Assembly (NCBI RefSeq): GCF_000420745.1
Contig: NZ_ATVN01000003.1
Span: forward strand, 62,001-126,000
Source of the DNA: Pseudorhodobacter ferrugineus DSM 5888
Lineage (GTDB): Bacteria > Pseudomonadota > Alphaproteobacteria > Rhodobacterales > Rhodobacteraceae
Direction of reading: 5' to 3'
Length of the DNA stretch: 64,000 nt
In this document: one piece after another, positions 6,290 to 39,971 of the stretch
Layout of the letters: every line of letters begins with the position of its first letter
Position numbering within the stretch: position 1 is the first letter of the stretch
The notes under the pieces: model-generated
Databases searched by the model: none
Seen by the model: only the letters and a program-made list of their open reading frames with translations
What the model was told of the DNA's origin: nothing
Translations under genes and position numbers: made by a program

Positions 6290-6329
6290 AAGGGCGGGCT
6301 TCTTACGAAGCCCGCCCTTTTCTTTTTTT
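6290..6329 (+). terminator. Rho-independent terminator after phaP
   Basis: AAGGGCGGGCT (6290-6300) pairs with AGCCCGCCCTT (6309-6319) in an 11-bp stem with an eight-base loop, followed by a long T-rich tract. It separates the phasin transcript from phaR. Confidence 0.92.
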
Positions 6330-6349
6330 CTGCACTGCCCTAAGGTTTT

Positions 6350-6360
6350 CTGCACAGCAG
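6350..6360. promoter_or_regulatory. PhaR operator upstream of phaR (autoregulation)
   Basis: CTGCACAGCAG matches CTGC-N3-GCAG and abuts a TATATC hexamer that could be the -10 box. It lies 31 bases before the phaR start, suggesting that PhaR represses its own gene. Confidence 0.65.
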
Positions 6361-6391
6361 TATATCTGCGCAACAAACCAACGGGTGTACC

Positions 6392-6970
6392 ATGGCCGAA
6401 ACTGACAAGCCGCTGCTGATCAAGCGCTATGCAAGCCGGCGCCTTTATAATACCGAAACCTCGGATTATGTGACGCTCGAAGATATCTCTGGCTTTATCC
6501 GCAACGGGCGCGAGGTCCAGATCATTGATCTGAAATCCGGCGACGATCTGACGCGCCAATATCTTTTGCAAATCGTCGCCGAAAACGAAAGCAAGGGCCA
6601 AAGTGTTTTACCTACCAATGTGCTGAATGATCTGGTGCGCAGTTATGCCACGGGTGTCACATCCGTGGTGCCGCAGTTTTTATCCGCGTCCTTTGATATG
6701 CTGCGCGACAGCCAGTCTAAAATCGTGGAAAATCTTACCAAGGTGCCCAACCCGATGGCCGCAGTTCCGGGCTTTGATGCCATGCGCAAGCAGCAGGAAA
6801 TGTTCTTGAAATCCATCATGGGCGGTGTTCCCGGTTGGCCAGGGCCTGCGGGTGCCGACAAGCAAAATGAAGCGCCAGCCCAAGCCAAAGAAACCGCCGC
6901 AGAGCAGAATGAGCTGAACGAGATCAAGGCCCAATTGGCCGAGCTGCAAAAGAAGCTGTCCAAGCTCTGA
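6392..6970 (+). CDS. phaR: PHB synthesis repressor
   Basis: The 192-residue protein opens with the PhaR DNA-binding domain (KRYASRRLYNTETSDYVTLE, residues 11-30, extending to about 67), followed by the PHB-accumulation regulatory region and a Q/E/K-rich C terminus. In relatives PhaR binds DNA when PHB is scarce and is titrated onto growing granules, releasing phasin synthesis. Three CTGC-N3-GCAG operators in this window lie before phaC, phaP and phaR itself. The ATG at 6392 starts a typical MAETDKP N terminus. Confidence 0.95.
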   Translation: MAETDKPLLIKRYASRRLYNTETSDYVTLEDISGFIRNGREVQIIDLKSGDDLTRQYLLQIVAENESKGQSVLPTNVLNDLVRSYATGVTSVVPQFLSASFDMLRDSQSKIVENLTKVPNPMAAVPGFDAMRKQQEMFLKSIMGGVPGWPGPAGADKQNEAPAQAKETAAEQNELNEIKAQLAELQKKLSKL

Positions 6971-31591: not shown

Positions 31592-33001
31592 CTAGGTGGT
31601 AAAGGTGTCGGGGCCGATGCCGTAAGGCACGACCCCGCGCCTGTCCGGATCGACCGAAAGTTGCTTTTCCAAGGGTGGGACAGACCGTTGGTGGCAATCG
31701 GGGCGTTCACAGATGCGGCAGGAAATGCCGATGGGTTCAAATCTGCCGCGCAGATCCAGACCATCGGCATAGACCAGTTTTGGCGCATGAGCGATTTCAC
31801 AGCCCAATCCGATGGCATAACGCTGTACGGGCGCGCCAAACGCGCCGCCAGATTTTGACACATCGCGCGCAAGGCAAACATAGCGCACCCCATCGGGCGT
31901 TTCGGCCAGTTGGCGCAGGAAACGGCCCGGTGTTTCAAAGGCTTGATGGACGTTCCACAGCGGGCAAGCGCCGCCGAAGCGCGCGAATTGAAAGCGGGTG
32001 GCGGAATGGCGTTTGGTAACGGTGCCAGCCTGATCGACCCGCACGAAAAAGAACGGTACGCCTTTGGCCCCCGGGCGTTGCAAGGTGGACAGACGGTGGG
32101 CGACCTGTTCGATGGAGCTGTCGAAAAGGTCGGACAGACGCTCTAGGTCGTGGCGCTCACGGTCTGCGGCCTCAAGAAACGCGGTGTAGGGCATGATGGC
32201 CGCACCCGCGAAATAGTTCGCAAGACCGATTTTCGCGATCCCGCGCGCCTGCGGGCTGTGAAATTGCGCAAGGTCCAGCGTTGCCTCGAACAAATCATTT
32301 TGGGTAAGCAGGGCGACTTGATGCAGCAAGTGAAAGCGGCGGGTGGCACCTGTTACGCGCGCCGATAGGGCCAGATGCTTGGTTTTCGGGTCAAAGCGGC
32401 GGATGTCTGTGGTGTTCGAAAGGGTCAAGTCTATGCAAAGGCTTTCGAGGGTAGCAAGGGCGGTGCTTTCAATCGGGATATCAGGGCCTTGCAGCGTGGC
32501 GTAGCGTTCCGCTGCGCGGTCAATGGCGTCTATGTAATTGTCGCAATAGTGAAAGAAATCGCGCACCTCTTCCCACGGAGAGGGGGACAGAGACGCCTCA
32601 TTCCGGCCCAAGGCATCATCGAAGCTGGCAAGGCGTTCATGGCTTTGGCGGTAGGCGCGGTGCAGGTCCAAGAACGCGCGGGCAAGGGCCGGGGCGTTGG
32701 AGGCGGCAAGGCGCAGGTCTGCCAAAGGGGGCGGTGTTGTGAAGACGGGGTCGGCCAATGCCTCACGCATGTCGGTGACCATGCGTTCGCTGTCGCCTGT
32801 TGTCAGCTCGGTTACATCCAGCCCAAATTCCTGCGCGAGGCCCAGCACCACACCTGCCGAAATGGGGCGGTTGTTGTTTTCCATCTGGTTCAGGTAGGGC
32901 AGGGATACATCAAGTTTTTGCGCAAACATCTTTTGCGTCAGGCGCAGCCGCGCGCGCAATTCGCGCAGTTTTACGCCGGCATAAAGTTTTTGCGTGGCCA
33001 T
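31592..33001 (-). CDS. pccR: short-chain acyl-CoA regulator of propionyl-CoA assimilation
   Basis: The 469-residue protein has an N-terminal XRE helix-turn-helix (about residues 8-60, LRLTQKMFAQKLDVSLPYLN), a central ImmA/IrrE-like region and a cysteine-bearing C-terminal domain (SCRICERPDC). This is the short-chain fatty acyl-CoA regulator family, whose studied member PccR controls pccB in Rhodobacter sphaeroides. pccB lies about 1.5 kb away on the other strand. TTTGCAAA sites occur just upstream of this gene and of pccB, supporting self-control and control of pccB. The start at 33001 follows AAGGGGC. Confidence 0.88.
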   Translation of the reverse strand: MATQKLYAGVKLRELRARLRLTQKMFAQKLDVSLPYLNQMENNNRPISAGVVLGLAQEFGLDVTELTTGDSERMVTDMREALADPVFTTPPPLADLRLAASNAPALARAFLDLHRAYRQSHERLASFDDALGRNEASLSPSPWEEVRDFFHYCDNYIDAIDRAAERYATLQGPDIPIESTALATLESLCIDLTLSNTTDIRRFDPKTKHLALSARVTGATRRFHLLHQVALLTQNDLFEATLDLAQFHSPQARGIAKIGLANYFAGAAIMPYTAFLEAADRERHDLERLSDLFDSSIEQVAHRLSTLQRPGAKGVPFFFVRVDQAGTVTKRHSATRFQFARFGGACPLWNVHQAFETPGRFLRQLAETPDGVRYVCLARDVSKSGGAFGAPVQRYAIGLGCEIAHAPKLVYADGLDLRGRFEPIGISCRICERPDCHQRSVPPLEKQLSVDPDRRGVVPYGIGPDTFTT

Positions 33002-33015
33002 TGTTTGCCCCTTGA

Positions 33016-33043
33016 TTTGCAAACCGTACGGTGGCTTTGCAAA
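33016..33043. promoter_or_regulatory. paired TTTGCAAA sites upstream of pccR
   Basis: Two perfect TTTGCAAA palindromes (33016-33023 and 33036-33043) have centres 20 bases apart, about two DNA turns, just upstream of pccR. The same octamer occurs before pccB. TTTGCAAA pairs have been described for PccR, though with a different spacer as I recall it. Confidence 0.65.
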
Positions 33044-34463: not shown

Positions 34464-35990
34464 ATGAAAGATATCTTGCAGCAGCTGGAAGACCGCCGTG
34501 ATGTGGCCCGTCAGGGTGGCGGCGAGCGCCGTGTGGCGGCGCAGCATTCCAAGGGCAAGTTGACCGCGCGCGAGCGGATCGAGCTGTTGCTGGACGAAGG
34601 ATCGTTCGAAGAATTTGACATGTTCGTCGCCCACCGCTGCACCGATTTCGGGATGGAAAAAGATCGGCCTGCGGGCGACGGGGTGGTGACGGGCTGGGGC
34701 ACGGTGAATGGCCGGATGGTCTATGTGTTTTCGCAGGACTTTACGGTTATGGGTGGGTCTGTTTCCGAAACTCACGCGCAAAAGATATGCAAAATCATGG
34801 ACATGGCGATGCAAAACGGCGCGCCGGTTATCGGGATGAATGATTCCGGTGGTGCGCGCATTCAAGAAGGTGTGGCTAGTCTTGCCGCCTATGGCGAGGT
34901 GTTTCAGCGCAATATCATGGCGTCGGGCGTGGTGCCGCAGATCAGCTTGATCATGGGGCCATGCGCGGGCGGCGCGGTGTATTCGCCCGCGATGACCGAC
35001 TTTATCTTTATGGTCAAAGATTCGTCTTATATGTTCGTGACAGGCCCCGATGTGGTGAAAACCGTGACGAACGAGGTGGTGACAGCCGAGGAATTGGGTG
35101 GGGCGTCGACCCACACCAAGAAAAGTTCGGTCGCCGATGGCGCCTATGAAAATGATGTCGAAGCGCTGGCCGAAACGCGCCGCCTGATCGACTTTTTGCC
35201 TTTGTCAAACCGCGAGAAGGCACCGACCCGGCCGTTCTTTGATGATCCGGCGCGGGTGGAACAAAGCCTTGATACGCTGATCCCCGACAACCCGAACCAG
35301 CCGTATGATATGAAGGAATTGATCCTGAAGCTGGCGGATGAAGGCGATTTCTTTGAAATCCAAGCGGCTTTTGCGGGCAACATCATCACCGGCTTTATCC
35401 GGATTGAAGGGCAATCCGTGGGTGTTGTTGCCAACCAGCCAACGGTTTTGGCGGGCTGTTTGGATATTGATAGCAGCCGCAAGGCCGCGCGGTTTGTGCG
35501 GTTTTGCGATGCGTTCGAAATTCCGATCCTGACGCTGGTGGATGTGCCTGGGTTCCTGCCCGGCACTTCACAGGAATATGGTGGGGTGATTAAACACGGC
35601 GCGAAACTGTTGTTTGCGTATGGCGAGGCGACTGTGCCGAAAGTGACGGTGATCACCCGCAAGGCTTACGGCGGTGCCTATGACGTGATGGCGTCCAAGC
35701 ATCTGCGCGGCGATTTCAACTATGCCTGGCCCACGGCAGAAATTGCGGTGATGGGGGCCAAAGGGGCGACCGAAATCATTTATCGCGGCAAAACCGCCGA
35801 GGAAATTGCCGAGCGTACATCGGAATATGAAGCGCGTTTTGCCAACCCGTTTGTGGCGGCCGAAAAAGGATTTATCGACGAGGTGATCATGCCGCATTCC
35901 ACACGGCGGCGTATTGCACGGGCATTTGCAAGTTTGCGTGGGAAGAAGCTTACAAATCCGTGGAAAAAGCACGATAACATTCCGCTATAA
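34464..35990 (+). CDS. pccB: propionyl-CoA carboxylase beta chain
   Basis: PccB is the carboxyltransferase subunit that moves CO2 from biotin to propionyl-CoA, making (S)-methylmalonyl-CoA. The 508-residue length, the [19 protein letters not shown] region and the two crotonase-like halves ([12 protein letters not shown] and [15 protein letters not shown]) fit the acyl-CoA carboxylase beta family. Its start follows a GGGGGAGGCC ribosome site. PccA lies 2 kb downstream, separated by a block of small genes, an unusual arrangement. The upstream TTTGCAA sites suggest control by PccR. Confidence 0.97.
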
Positions 35991-36011: not shown

Positions 36012-36107
36012 ATGCCCAAGACGATCGACATCACGAAAGAAGCTGACATGGATCGGCTGGGCAGGGCGTTGCTGCCCGCGCCTTTGCTGCGAAAGGCCAA
36101 AGCATGA
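36012..36107 (+). CDS. 31-residue small protein of unknown function
   Basis: The reading frame MPKTIDITKEADMDRLGRAL and onwards ends in a basic ...LRKAKA tail. It starts 21 bases after pccB behind a GGAAGCGGAG ribosome site and overlaps the next gene's start by four bases (ATGA), which is typical of real coupled genes. It is too short to assign a family. It may also act only as a leader that couples translation of the following gene. Confidence 0.45.
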   Translation: MPKTIDITKEADMDRLGRALLPAPLLRKAKA

Positions 36108-36481
36108 CGGGGGCAACACAGGCAGCAGCCGTTGCCGAAACTGCAGTACAGATGTTTGGTGTGCCGTCAGGGCAGCCCGTGACGTTGCAAGATTTGTTCT
36201 GGGAAGAGGGCGACAATCTGGTGTTGCGCGTGCGGTTTTTGACCCCGCAAATTGCGCGAGACGCTGGTACAGTGGATTATGACACGGCGACCAAGGACAT
36301 GCTGCATCTGTGCGACACGGTTGTACGGCCACAGGTCGAGGCGGGAGAGGATAAGCCGGATCAGATTATCATATCTTTTTCCGATATCGAGGTGCCGTTT
36401 GGCGAAGCAGACCCCGCTGCCACGCAGTTTTTCGAGGCCTATCGCATCGAAAATGGGGCCTGTATATGGGAGGTGTACTGA
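36104..36481 (+). CDS. uncharacterised 125-residue protein (DUF6497-like)
   Basis: The protein begins with a helix-forming MTGATQAAAVAETAVQMF and continues with GQPVTLQDLFWEEGDNLVLRVR and an acidic SDIEVPFGEADP segment, ending ENGACIWEVY. It resembles the DUF6497 family of Rhodobacterales, whose function is unknown; that assignment is from memory and not verified. There is no clear signal peptide in this frame. It is coupled to the 31-residue frame before it and lies in the pccB-pccA interval. Confidence 0.7.
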   Translation: MTGATQAAAVAETAVQMFGVPSGQPVTLQDLFWEEGDNLVLRVRFLTPQIARDAGTVDYDTATKDMLHLCDTVVRPQVEAGEDKPDQIIISFSDIEVPFGEADPAATQFFEAYRIENGACIWEVY

Positions 36482-36695
36482 TGAAACCGCTATATATGGT
36501 AGCAACAGGCAAAAACTCGCCGCTTCGTGATGTAGGCAAGCCACAGGGTGTCTTCTTGTGTAAAGACCTATGTCTTTCGTATCGGGGACAGGCTATTGTT
36601 TCTGAAGGCCGAACCCAAGCGGCCGATACCTTGCATTGGGGACGCTTTGCGGAACAGTCCGCGGAGTCAACCCCACAAAAAACCAGGAGTCGAGG

Positions 36696-36836
36696 ATGTC
36701 CACGAGCGCAAAAACAATTATCGCCCTTTGCACTGTTGCCTTTATGGCAGCTTGCGGCGGCGCAAAGCAGACTGAAACTGTTTACGTTGAAGAAGCTGTT
36801 TCGCAAGAGCCAGTCTACACCGGCAAATACAAGTAA
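36696..36836 (+). CDS. small lipoprotein
   Basis: The 46-residue product has a signal peptide with lipobox FMAAC (acylated Cys about residue 20) and a short acidic mature part ending in YTGKYK. An AGGAG site precedes the ATG and a strong terminator follows eight bases after the stop. Lipoprotein processing would anchor it in the periplasm or outer membrane. It belongs to a family of tiny Rhodobacterales lipoproteins of unknown role. The 214 bases before it hold a hairpin (36649-36662) but no convincing gene. Confidence 0.75.
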   Translation: MSTSAKTIIALCTVAFMAACGGAKQTETVYVEEAVSQEPVYTGKYK

Positions 36837-36843
36837 TATTTGG

Positions 36844-36885
36844 GGGCGGGCCGGTGGCGCGCTTGGCGCCATGCCCGCCCTTTTT
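36844..36885 (+). terminator. Rho-independent terminator after small lipoprotein
   Basis: GGGCGGGC (36844-36851) pairs with GCCCGCCC (36873-36880), with an inner TGGCGC/GCGCCA stem, followed by five T. Confidence 0.88.
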
Positions 36886-36929
36886 CTATCTGGAACCGCC
36901 TTTGCACCCGTCCAGATCGGGGGTGCAGC

Positions 36930-37331
36930 ATGATCAAGCATCGTGGGTTCCCCGGACGTCTGCCATCCACTGATTATCAATTTGTGATCCGCCGCGCCAA
37001 CAAGGCCGGTGCGACCAAGATCATCAAGCGCGAGCGGTATCGCGACCGTGCGAATGTGGACCGCGCCGCCGATGAAGGGTTCATGAAAGCGCTATGGACG
37101 CAGTTCGGCGAAGAGCCGTTCGAACGCGGCAATCTGGATGCGGGGCGGATATCGTGGCTGTTTGGCCGCGAAGTCGTTGCCGCCCAAGATCCATTTGACC
37201 CCGAAGACTATGAAGCGTTGTTGAAAATCAACGTGAAAGTCGCTGAAATTTCGTTCCCCAAGGTCTTTGCACCGGACGCCCCACCGCTTGAGGTGGACGA
37301 CTGGGCCGATTGGGATGATGAGGACGAATAG
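36930..37331 (+). CDS. uncharacterised acidic 133-residue protein
   Basis: The start at 36930 gives a basic N-terminal half (RRANKAGATKIIKRERYRDR) and a strongly acidic C terminus (DWADWDDEDE). No signal peptide or membrane segment is seen, and no family is recognised. It lies in the pccB-pccA interval after a terminator, so it probably has its own promoter. The mixed charge pattern is common in small nucleic-acid-associated proteins, but that is only a guess. Confidence 0.65.
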   Translation: MIKHRGFPGRLPSTDYQFVIRRANKAGATKIIKRERYRDRANVDRAADEGFMKALWTQFGEEPFERGNLDAGRISWLFGREVVAAQDPFDPEDYEALLKINVKVAEISFPKVFAPDAPPLEVDDWADWDDEDE

Positions 37332-37611
37332 GCATGAACCCGCGCATCCTTAGCAGAGAGCGGCGAGGTCTCGCCTGCGCCTTTGGGCCGGTTTCAATGC
37401 CGGTCTGGCAAAGGGTGCGCACTATATTTTTATGGTTTACCAAAGGGTTGAATGGGGCCTGTTTCGCAGGGAACAGGGCGGGTAAGGCCGTCTTGACGGG
37501 CCGCGCGGTTTGGGCAAAAATTGACGTGATGATCGCGGATTTCCCCTTTTATTCTTGGGCAAAGCCGTTAGAATCGGACGGAATAAAAACCCAAAATAGA
37601 GGCTTTGCAGT
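37332..37611 (+). other. 280-base gap with structured segment, no convincing gene
   Basis: No plausible coding frame with a ribosome site was found. A nested hairpin (CCTTTG at 37380-37385 with CAAAGG at 37409-37414, around inner CCGG/CCGG) is followed by an A/T-rich stretch, which could be an RNA structure or weak terminator. The gap must also hold the promoter of the lipoprotein at 37612. Confidence 0.35.
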
Positions 37612-37845
37612 ATGCGTAAATCAATTCTTCTTCTTGCCACAGTGGCCGCTTTCGGTCTTGCTGGCTGCGTTTCCAACAACCCGAATTCGCCAACCAATAA
37701 CGCCGCTGTGCGCACAATTGGCGGGGCCGCAGCAGGGGCCGTTATTGCCGACGCAACGGGCGGCAGCAAAACCAAAGGCGCGCTGGTTGGTGCCCTTATC
37801 GGTGGCGTTTCGTGCGGCCTGCCGGGCTTGCCCCAGTGCTACTAA
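37612..37845 (+). CDS. glycine-zipper lipoprotein
   Basis: The 77-residue protein has a lipoprotein signal with lipobox GLAGC (Cys about residue 19) and then glycine-zipper segments (IGGAAAGAVIADATGG and GALVGALIGG), like OsmB/YmgG-type outer-membrane lipoproteins. A Cys pair lies at the C terminus (SCGLPGLPQCY). It lies immediately upstream of pccA but is separated from it by a terminator, so it is likely independent of the carboxylase. Confidence 0.82.
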   Translation: MRKSILLLATVAAFGLAGCVSNNPNSPTNNAAVRTIGGAAAGAVIADATGGSKTKGALVGALIGGVSCGLPGLPQCY

Positions 37846-37890: not shown

Positions 37891-37926
37891 AAGGCCATTC
37901 GGGGTAGTCCCCCGAGTGGCCTTTTT
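37891..37926 (+). terminator. Rho-independent terminator before pccA
   Basis: AAGGCCA(T)TCGGGG pairs with CCCCGA(G)TGGCC in a long stem with one bulged position, followed by five T. It isolates pccA from the lipoprotein gene, so pccA needs its own promoter within the following 42 bases or earlier read-through. Confidence 0.85.
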
Positions 37927-37967: not shown

Positions 37968-39971
37968 ATGTTTAATAAGATCCTTATCGCCAACCGTGGT
38001 GAAATTGCCTGTCGGGTTATCAAATCGGCCCGCGCGATGGGCATCAAAACCGTGGCGGTTTATTCGGATGCAGATCGCAATGCCTTGCATGTGCGCATGG
38101 CGGATGAGGCGGTGCATATTGGTCCGGCACCCGCCAACCAATCCTATATCGTGATTGACAAGATCATGGACGCCATTCGCCAAACGGGGGCCGAAGCGGT
38201 GCATCCGGGCTATGGATTTTTGTCCGAGAATATGAACTTTGCTGCCGCGCTGGAGGCTGAAGGCGTGGTGTTCATCGGGCCGCCTTCCTCCGCGATTGAG
38301 CAGATGGGCGACAAGATTACATCCAAAAAGCTGGCGATGGAGGCGGGGGTTTCCACCGTGCCCGGCTATATGGGGATTATTGAGGATGCCGATGAGGCCG
38401 TAAAAATCTCGGGTGAAATTGGCTATCCGGTGATGATTAAGGCCAGCGCGGGCGGTGGCGGCAAGGGCATGCGGATCGCGTGGAGCGAGTCAGAGGTAAA
38501 GGAAGGGTTTGAGTCGTCCAAGAACGAGGCGGCGAATTCCTTTGGCGATGACCGGATTTTCATTGAGAAATTTGTGACCCAACCGCGCCATATTGAAATT
38601 CAGGTGCTGGCCGACAAGCATGGCAATTGCGTTTATTTGCACGAACGCGAGTGTTCGATCCAGCGGCGGAACCAAAAGGTGATTGAGGAAGCGCCAAGCC
38701 CGTTCTTGGATGAGGCGACCCGCAAGGCGATGGGCGAGCAGGCCTGTGCTTTGGCGCAAGCCGTGGGCTATACCAGTGCTGGGACGGTGGAGTTTATCGT
38801 CGACGGTGCGCGCAATTTCTATTTCCTGGAAATGAACACGCGTTTGCAGGTGGAACACCCTGTGACCGAGCTGATTACCGGCGTTGATTTGGTCGAACAG
38901 ATGATCCGCGTGGCGCATGGTGAGGCGCTGCCGTTCAAGCAAAGCGATTTGAAAATCAACGGCTGGGCGATGGAAAGCCGGCTTTATGCCGAAGACCCGT
39001 ATCGCGGGTTCTTGCCTTCCATTGGCCGCCTGACCCGTTACCGCCCGCCGGTTGAGGGAACCACGGCGGCAGGGGGCATTGTGCGCAACGATACCGGCGT
39101 GTTTGAAGGCGGCGAGATCAGCATGTTTTATGACCCGATGATCGCCAAGCTGTGCACTTGGGGGCCAACGCGGGAGCAGGCGATTGAAGAAATGCGGCTG
39201 GCGCTGGACACGTTCGAGGTGGAAGGGATCGGGCATAACCTGCCGTTCTGTTCGGCCGTGATGGACCATCCGCGTTTTGTGTCGGGCGATATTACGACGG
39301 CGTTTATTGCCGAGGAATATCCAGACGGGTTTGCCGGCGTGACGCTGGACGAGGCGCTGTCGCGCCGTGTTGTGGCGGCGGCGGCGGCAATGAACCGCGT
39401 GGCCGAAATTCGACGCACGCGTATTTCGGGCACGATGGACAACCACGAGCGCAAAGTCGGGACAGATTGGAACGTGGCCCTGCAAGGCGGGTCACATAAC
39501 GTGACGATTGCAGCCGATAAGGGCGGGTCCACTGTGCGCTTTGCCGATGGGGCAGAGATGCGGGTGGAAAGCGACTGGACGCCGGGGCAACCGCTTGCGC
39601 GCCTTACGGTCGATGGTGCACCCTTGGTGATGAAGGTCGGCAAGGTGCCGTCGGGCTTCCGGCTACGGCTGCGTGGGGCGGATTTTACCTGCCATGTGCG
39701 CACCCCGCGTCAGGCCGAACTGGCGGGTTTGATGCTGGAAAAGGTGGCACCCGACACGTCGAAATACCTGCTTTGCCCGATGCCCGGTTTGATTGTAAAA
39801 ATCAACGTGGGCGTTGGCGATGAGGTGCAAGAAGGCCAAGCGCTTGCCACGGTCGAGGCGATGAAGATGGAAAACATCCTGCGCGCCGAGAAAAAAGGCG
39901 TCATCAAGCTGATCAAAGCCACTGCGGGCGAAAGTCTGAAGGTGGACGAAGTGATTATGGAGTTTGAATGA
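37968..39971 (+). CDS. pccA: propionyl-CoA carboxylase alpha chain
   Basis: PccA carboxylates its own biotin with ATP and bicarbonate. The 667-residue protein has the biotin carboxylase domain (ANRGEIACRVI near residue 10, ATP-grasp KASAGGGGKGMRI, metal/ATP motif FLEMNTRLQVEHPVTE), the BT linker region and a C-terminal biotinyl domain with Lys633 in VEAMKMEN. It works with pccB. The two are not adjacent here: small genes and two terminators lie between them. Confidence 0.97.
   Translation: MFNKILIANRGEIACRVIKSARAMGIKTVAVYSDADRNALHVRMADEAVHIGPAPANQSYIVIDKIMDAIRQTGAEAVHPGYGFLSENMNFAAALEAEGVVFIGPPSSAIEQMGDKITSKKLAMEAGVSTVPGYMGIIEDADEAVKISGEIGYPVMIKASAGGGGKGMRIAWSESEVKEGFESSKNEAANSFGDDRIFIEKFVTQPRHIEIQVLADKHGNCVYLHERECSIQRRNQKVIEEAPSPFLDEATRKAMGEQACALAQAVGYTSAGTVEFIVDGARNFYFLEMNTRLQVEHPVTELITGVDLVEQMIRVAHGEALPFKQSDLKINGWAMESRLYAEDPYRGFLPSIGRLTRYRPPVEGTTAAGGIVRNDTGVFEGGEISMFYDPMIAKLCTWGPTREQAIEEMRLALDTFEVEGIGHNLPFCSAVMDHPRFVSGDITTAFIAEEYPDGFAGVTLDEALSRRVVAAAAAMNRVAEIRRTRISGTMDNHERKVGTDWNVALQGGSHNVTIAADKGGSTVRFADGAEMRVESDWTPGQPLARLTVDGAPLVMKVGKVPSGFRLRLRGADFTCHVRTPRQAELAGLMLEKVAPDTSKYLLCPMPGLIVKINVGVGDEVQEGQALATVEAMKMENILRAEKKGVIKLIKATAGESLKVDEVIMEFE

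Follow-up and report, generated by a model that had tools for sequence, protein, structure and literature searches.

A near-universal protein of undescribed family between pccB and pccA in the Rhodobacteraceae, and an RNA-like element beside it in relatives

Introduction

Why do small genes stand between pccB and pccA, the genes for the two subunits of propionyl-CoA carboxylase (PCC), and do they serve the carboxylase? The question is raised by positions 36012-37845 of a 64,000-nucleotide (nt) stretch of DNA from Pseudorhodobacter ferrugineus DSM 5888 (contig NZ_ATVN01000003.1, positions 62,001 to 126,000 of the forward strand; hereafter the window), where five small open reading frames (ORFs), here called A to E, separate the two carboxylase genes. 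An earlier note on this DNA had described the interval as an uncharacterised block of five small genes, with two lipoproteins and two terminators, and had suggested that it could form an envelope or carboxylase-accessory unit. The block is in fact four genes plus a scar and is strongly conserved, and its constant member, D, is encoded by 388 of 390 genomes of the order. As no family, function or structural relative was found for it, D stands for a missing entry among the known basic components of these bacteria.

The placement of D between pccB and pccA invites its annotation as a carboxylase factor, against which the evidence from gene loss argues. D is instead probably a core protein of the family that is independent of the carboxylase and is parked in the pcc locus, although its activity can only be inferred. 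Two things are new at this locus: the D family and an RNA-like element between D and E that was seen outside the window and offers a specific candidate for a novel small-RNA family.

Distribution and conservation of D

The first sample comprised 121 genomes of the order from 58 genera, all of one family, in which D was matched in 120 genomes and pccB in 119 (E <= 1e-180). In 117 of them the two genes share a contig and a strand, and the distance from pccB to D downstream ranges from 33 to 2307 nt, with a median of 1103. Of the other four, G050 has the genes on different contigs, pccB of G006 is cut where the contig ends, G081 lacks pccB and G110 lacks D. The regions of the 117 genomes and of G006, G081 and G110 were fetched, and hidden Markov model (HMM) matches to D were found in 119 of these 120 loci. 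D stands between pccB and pccA in all 118 loci that hold the three genes, usually together with B, C or E and in the recurrent order B-C-D-E, so that the conservation beside pccBA that the earlier note had asked to be checked is borne out. The 390 genomes of the order that carry D with two exceptions represent 139 genera, 138 of which have D, and both misses (G110 and G511) belong to one genus; the alignment of 119 D sequences is invariant at 25 positions.

Outside the order the protein is rare. Matches to D were obtained in 4 of 289 genomes of a class sample, and these, among the matches listed, are genomes of its own family; a phylum-wide sample gave 30 of 398 genomes, 27 from its own family and three from another family of the class (f160), which overturned the idea that D is confined to one family. 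At least 582 relatives were returned by a scan of GTDB, most of the best 80 being named Rhodobacteraceae or Roseobacter-group and some being metagenome-assembled genomes named to class only. This distribution is similar to that of the Rhodobacterales 'signature proteins' of Gupta and Mok 2007, given in the available text as 29 order-specific proteins, many of them hypothetical (PMC2241609), with the difference that D also occurs in the three genomes of another family; D may or may not be one of the 29.

No known family was found for D. The window's protein has no Pfam match at E <= 1 and none at gathering level, no NCBIfam match and no PDB sequence match; one phage-family match of the window's D (E 0.019) was not obtained with a near-consensus D, defence models gave nothing, and these results were taken as no signal. 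In the literature, the main text of an essentiality study, as far as it is available, does not name the R. sphaeroides locus tags that were looked for (PMC5513736), the accessible part of PMC9275681 holds nothing on this locus, and that of PMC12632250 maps insertions at the locus and names no block gene in its text. Among the GTDB matches listed there is also a contig titled Nocardioides marinus (L243), whose D gene shares 83% identity with the near-consensus query; it is probably a mislabelled or contaminated record.

Gene losses in both directions

When absence was defined at E <= 1e-150 for pccB and E <= 1e-60 for mcm, pccB was absent from five of the 390 genomes, G081 and G531 of one genus and G483, G525 and G553 of another, and mcm was absent from all five; their best pccA-like protein is at most 56% identical, compared with 73-75% in the controls G110 and G511. 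D is kept in each of the five, as are matches to C and E, and B is matched in three. In G525, pccB-like and pccA-like fragments flank the intact block (L193:3790-4138 and 6322-6889), the pattern that a recent carboxylase loss would leave, and in G081 the C-D-E genes adjoin a betaine-aldehyde/choline dehydrogenase-like pair (betA/betB-like) and a TerB/DnaJ-like gene, all named by eye. Comparison of D between the congeneric G081 and G531 gave nonsynonymous (dN) and synonymous (dS) divergences of 0.031 and 0.764 (NG86), a dN/dS of about 0.04, and between G525 and G553, where separate pcc losses are possible, a dN of 0.163 and a dS of 0.827; all 25 invariant residues are retained in each of the four pcc-less D proteins scored, G483 being left out. 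Conversely, G110 and G511 have pccB, pccA and mcm and lack D, with no B, C or E match in the fetched locus.

Given these gene losses in both directions, a genome can have PCC without D, D appears to be under selection where PCC is absent, and the carboxylase-accessory unit suggested by the earlier note is disfavoured.

A probable carboxylase-independent role for D

The explanation that we favour takes the block as a conserved non-carboxylase insert in the pcc locus, in which D would be the constant member, belonging to the core gene set of the family, and would be surrounded by lineage-variable small genes, namely B and the lipoproteins C and E, with a slot of variable content after pccB, occupied by a methyltransferase-like gene in some lineages, by other genes elsewhere and, in the window, only by the deletion scar A. 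D would then have a housekeeping function independent of the carboxylase and would benefit only from being expressed in the pcc locus.

Structural models say little about what this function might be. Two models of D were compared, model 1 from 60 sequences, with a predicted local distance difference test (pLDDT) score of 84.5, and model 2 from 119 sequences with a near-consensus member first, with a pLDDT of 94.5 and a predicted template modelling score of 0.87. Foldseek comparison with the PDB gave a best E of 3.3 for both, and the best E against viral models was 1.3. With VIA, the best neighbour of model 1 was a MarR chain (Z 4.4, root-mean-square deviation 4.0, 72 residues aligned) and that of model 2 a mitoribosomal chain (Z 4.0, deviation 4.1, 71 aligned), followed by the MarR chain at Z 3.8, all below the level that the tool calls meaningful; these neighbours we take to be mostly winged-helix proteins. 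Residues 1-41 form an extended, almost invariant basic arm with a median net charge of +8, which has almost no helix or strand in model 2 and yet is modelled with high confidence; the arm is joined to a small domain of helices and strands, and the protein has no evident signal peptide. The basic arm and the faint, mostly winged-helix neighbours are the grounds for the tentative suggestion that D may contact nucleic acid, either RNA or DNA, and could be a factor associated with ribosomes or with transcription.

Several points weigh against a role for D apart from the carboxylase. D is still at the pcc locus in all 117 pcc-bearing genomes of the first sample with pccB and D on the same contig and strand. 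Two of the three f160 homologues, G945 and G907, are likewise flanked by pccB and pccA, and B, C and E gave no match there. In G945 the gap from pccB to the start of D is about 33 nt; in G907 D begins about 1 kb downstream of pccB and stops 37 nt short of pccA. Each has 19 of the 25 invariant residues, with a dN of 0.099 and a dS of 0.833 between them (G1012 left out); in G1012, the third homologue, there was no pccB or pccA match in the 19.5 kb fetched. The f160 arrangement might stem from joint transfer of the whole locus or reflect a true connection with PCC; together with the stay of D at the pcc locus, it suggests some link to the carboxylase. Moreover, the five pcc-less genomes belong to two genera, perhaps with fewer independent losses than genomes, the loss being undated, and they encode other biotin carboxylases, with two to four homologues each. 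Finally, the idea of nucleic-acid contact is drawn from charge and from structural scores that the tool itself calls uninformative.

Alternative explanations

Among the alternatives, an envelope module in which D is the cytoplasmic partner of the two lipoproteins C and E is unlikely, although it fits the joint retention of C, D and E in all five pcc-less genomes, two of them without a B match, and the position of C-D-E beside betA/betB-like genes in one of them. No C match precedes D in 36 of the 120 loci and no E match was found in 8 (each count including one D-less locus), the 19.5 kb fetched gave no C or E match for any of the three homologues from outside the family, and a terminator lies between C and D; given the terminators after C and E, these three genes need not be one operon. 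The envelope unit of the earlier note survives in part, since C and E are lipoprotein-like and B has a leader in many relatives, whereas D lacks an evident signal peptide.

More specific to the locus is the proposal that D is an accessory subunit or regulator of PCC, comparable to the epsilon subunit (AccE/PccE, PF13822) of actinobacteria, which is likewise a small gene beside a carboxylase beta-subunit gene and, in the available text of PMC13118682, directly follows the beta gene. The constant placement between pccB and pccA, the distance to pccB of as little as 33 nt and the two f160 loci where D is the only block gene found with pccB and pccA all speak for it. So does a report on Ruegeria pomeroyi, which states in its available text that SPO_PG022, a gene after pccB, is co-transcribed with SPO1094 (pccB) and SPO1095 (PMC3305630), so that in that species the pccB transcript can extend into the beginning of the interval. 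Nevertheless, D is kept, and is under purifying selection in the pair tested, in genomes that have lost pccB, orthologous pccA and mcm, and two genomes have the carboxylase without D. A search of 60 D proteins at E <= 1 gave no match to PF13822 and only three unrelated families (E 0.099 to 0.23, one or two members each), and a crystallised PCC chimera is described, in the accessible part of PMC10148081, as an alpha subunit of Ruegeria pomeroyi with a beta subunit of Roseobacter denitrificans. Taken with these points, an accessory role in PCC is rather improbable.

If D were a general factor for biotin-dependent acyl-CoA carboxylases, acting in their assembly, biotinylation or regulation, both its linkage to pcc and its survival after the loss of PCC would be explained, the more so as the five pcc-less genomes still encode biotin-carboxylase homologues. 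However, each of the two D-less genomes encodes four such homologues, including an orthologous PccA, and D is found only in one family and in three genomes of another, whereas biotin carboxylases are, to our knowledge, close to universal; this explanation is accordingly improbable. The remaining one, a chance accumulation of unrelated small genes in an insertion-tolerant region, agrees with the variable slot after pccB and with A as a decaying remnant. It may hold for A and in part for B, but it is improbable for the block, given the recurrent gene order, and largely refuted for D by its near-universal occurrence, its invariant residues and its conservation in the pcc-less genomes.

An RNA-like element between D and E in relatives

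In relatives of the window, the gap between D and E (for example, L077:2260-2327 and L068:1615-1682) holds a GTTACCCTTCCCCTT core followed by a hairpin and usually by a T-run. Within 450 nt after D, this core occurs with at most two mismatches in 61 of 119 loci and with at most four in 84, whereas single-base shuffles of the same stretches give expectations of 0.1 and 7.0, respectively. An exact search for the 14-mer was made in 32 genomes, 27 of which had been picked because they hold the core in the D-E gap; it was found in 28, in 27 of them in this gap and in G081 elsewhere only, and the reversed control was found in none of the 32. Of the 27 scanned genomes with a D-E copy, 26 have no other, and G029 has one more.

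The hairpin is of the terminator type and shows covariation. In an alignment of 64 sequences, in which the invariance of the core comes partly from the selection of rows, its eight pairs are 88.5% paired against 69.3% in shuffles, and 112 cells are changed on both sides against 34.3, with none of 500 shuffles reaching either value; the hairpin also surpasses all six slid versions of itself on both measures. More diverged copies were detected with a covariance model among 37 sources that were without a close match or otherwise of interest. In five genomes (G005, G056, G027, G076 and G091) about 1.7 kb separates D from the element, which is still 130-151 nt before E, and the gap holds a porin-like ORF on the opposite strand (by eye); for this reason the element is not simply the 3' end of D.

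On these grounds the element is a candidate small RNA. It is tempting, if rather doubtful, to join it with the protein, in that D would found a new family, possibly with an undescribed fold and a carboxylase-independent core function, and would form a regulatory module, housed at the pcc locus, with a new and mostly single-copy small RNA that is present in many genomes and whose conserved ACCCUUCCCC core precedes an intrinsic terminator. The element is conserved in relatives and is not detected in the window: the covariance model gave no match in the window's D-E gap, its only match in the window being at 6292-6327 (E 0.31). The match in the same-genus genome G073 had an E of 0.41, and neither the five pcc-less loci nor the two D-less loci gave one at E <= 1.

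Searches with Rfam gave no match at gathering score in the window and, among ten relatives at E <= 1, four matches, none at gathering score and none at the coordinates of the element; no mention of the motif was found in the literature searched on small RNAs of the Rhodobacteraceae. Two further features considered for the element were rejected, a hairpin upstream of it (mean folding energy over 62 nt of -19.3, against -17.9 in the control) and an unpaired core (12 or more of its 14 bases unpaired in only 27 of 68 predicted folds).

As to the surroundings of the element, an opposite-strand porin-like ORF (by eye) is present in all six loci with a D-E gap of more than 1.5 kb (G005, G027, G056, G076, G091 and G097, which are L067, L088, L116, L136, L150 and L156), and two further loci have an ORF related to it after D. 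Near the gap before pccA, L122:2776-2843 and L133:2948-3014 show sub-threshold matches to the Rfam ftsZ-DE RNA, at 49.1 and 32.1 bits against a threshold of 72.2.

The other genes of the block

The five ORFs of the earlier note, of 31, 125, 46, 133 and 77 residues, are all present on the plus strand (Table 1), and its terminators were recovered as terminator-like hairpins after C and after E. Only 1 of 200 shuffles is as good as the first hairpin, and none of 200 as good as the second, at -28.3 kcal/mol (z -6.9). A simple terminator scan found two sites, one after E and a weak 5-pair site inside B, against 4.3 expected in shuffles, and is by itself no evidence for terminators. The two lipoproteins proved to be C and E, with lipobox-like signals ending in AAC and AGC (by eye), and the coupling of the first two ORFs to each other and their closeness to pccB were likewise found, as an ATGA overlap between A and B and a distance of 21 nt from the pccB stop to the start of A. 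Its description of all five as genes and as uncharacterised was less apt, since A is a scar and B is a clear DUF6497 member, whereas D indeed matches no family.

Table 1. Features of the pcc locus in the window
Feature	Coordinates	Strand	Basis
ScfR-family regulator gene (PccR-like), upstream of locus	31592..33022	-	Pfam ScfRs PF09856 1.6e-69 (for 31592-32998)
pccB, carboxyltransferase subunit	34464..35990	+	Carboxyl_trans 1e-197
A, 31-codon ORF, putative internal-deletion remnant of ~253 aa methyltransferase-like gene	36012..36107	+	end alignments to intact gene
B, DUF6497 protein, 125 aa	36104..36481	+	PF20107 1.5e-40
C, 46 aa lipoprotein-like gene, ends EPVYTGKYK	36696..36836	+	HMM matches in relatives
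Terminator-like hairpin between C and D	36842..36882	+	-34.4 kcal/mol, z -3.27
D, 133 aa, undescribed near-universal family	36930..37331	+	388/390 genomes of order
E, 77 aa glycine-zipper-like lipoprotein	37612..37845	+	PF13441 3.9e-05, under curated cut-off
Intrinsic terminator after E	37891..37923	+	hairpin scan and folding energy
pccA, biotin carboxylase/carrier subunit	37968..39971	+	PCC_BT 6.8e-40

B belongs to DUF6497 (PF20107, 138.3 bits against a cut-off of 24.3), on which nothing was found in the literature searched, and has HMM matches in 101 of the 120 loci. Its leader is signal-peptide-like in many of 18 genomes (by eye), unlike in the window, G073, G046 and G062, pointing to a possible change of location in this genus and some near relatives. 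C, which has no Pfam match, has HMM matches in 89 of the 120 loci, with a match before D in 84 (counted manually from patterns), and these partly overlap those of E, both proteins being lipoprotein-like. E is matched in 112 of the 120 loci and resembles the glycine-zipper lipoproteins in its lipoprotein-like signal and glycine-zipper-like stretch, although its Pfam scores are all under the curated cut-offs (PF13441, 23.7 against 28.9; PF05433, 22.5 against 24.2; PF13488, 20.2 against 25; PF13436, 15.9 against 27).

The scar A and the slot after pccB

A reads MPKTIDITKEADMDRLGRALLPAPLLRKAKA and, judging by its DNA, is a remnant left by internal deletion of a methyltransferase-like gene. In the same interval of the same-genus genome G073 there is an intact gene of 253 residues, which starts MMPTPIDIAKEA, ends LLRKAAA and has the same overlap with B (L133:323-1081), and since the 5' and 3' DNA of A both align to this gene at the same place (score 35 each, against a shuffle maximum of 26, with 0 of 2000 shuffles reaching it), A is taken as its deletion remnant and the coupling of A to B may be read as inherited from the intact gene. 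The G073 gene has weak methyltransferase matches (25.7 against a Pfam cut-off of 27); the two ends of A match the ends of such a gene of the class I S-adenosylmethionine methyltransferases (Methyltransf_23 and kin), whereas the entire middle is missing, so that no intact catalytic domain is present in its 31 codons. As a coding gene in its own right A was rejected, its HMM giving only weak matches in four other loci at a loose threshold. A search for the methyltransferase-like gene elsewhere in the window's genome gave no match, a weak result as it lacked a positive-control genome.

The slot after pccB is variable, with many other ORFs across the loci, and the methyltransferase-like gene stands between pccB and B in 5 of the 120. 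One example from an ORF cluster of 57 genomes in this slot looks RidA-like, but a short RidA-like string occurs in only 4 of the 120 loci, so that RidA-like genes can be claimed for no more than a few. In L181 and L195, from the genus without D, the interval from pccB to pccA instead holds a RidA-like gene and the gene of a membrane-like protein of 88 residues (by eye).

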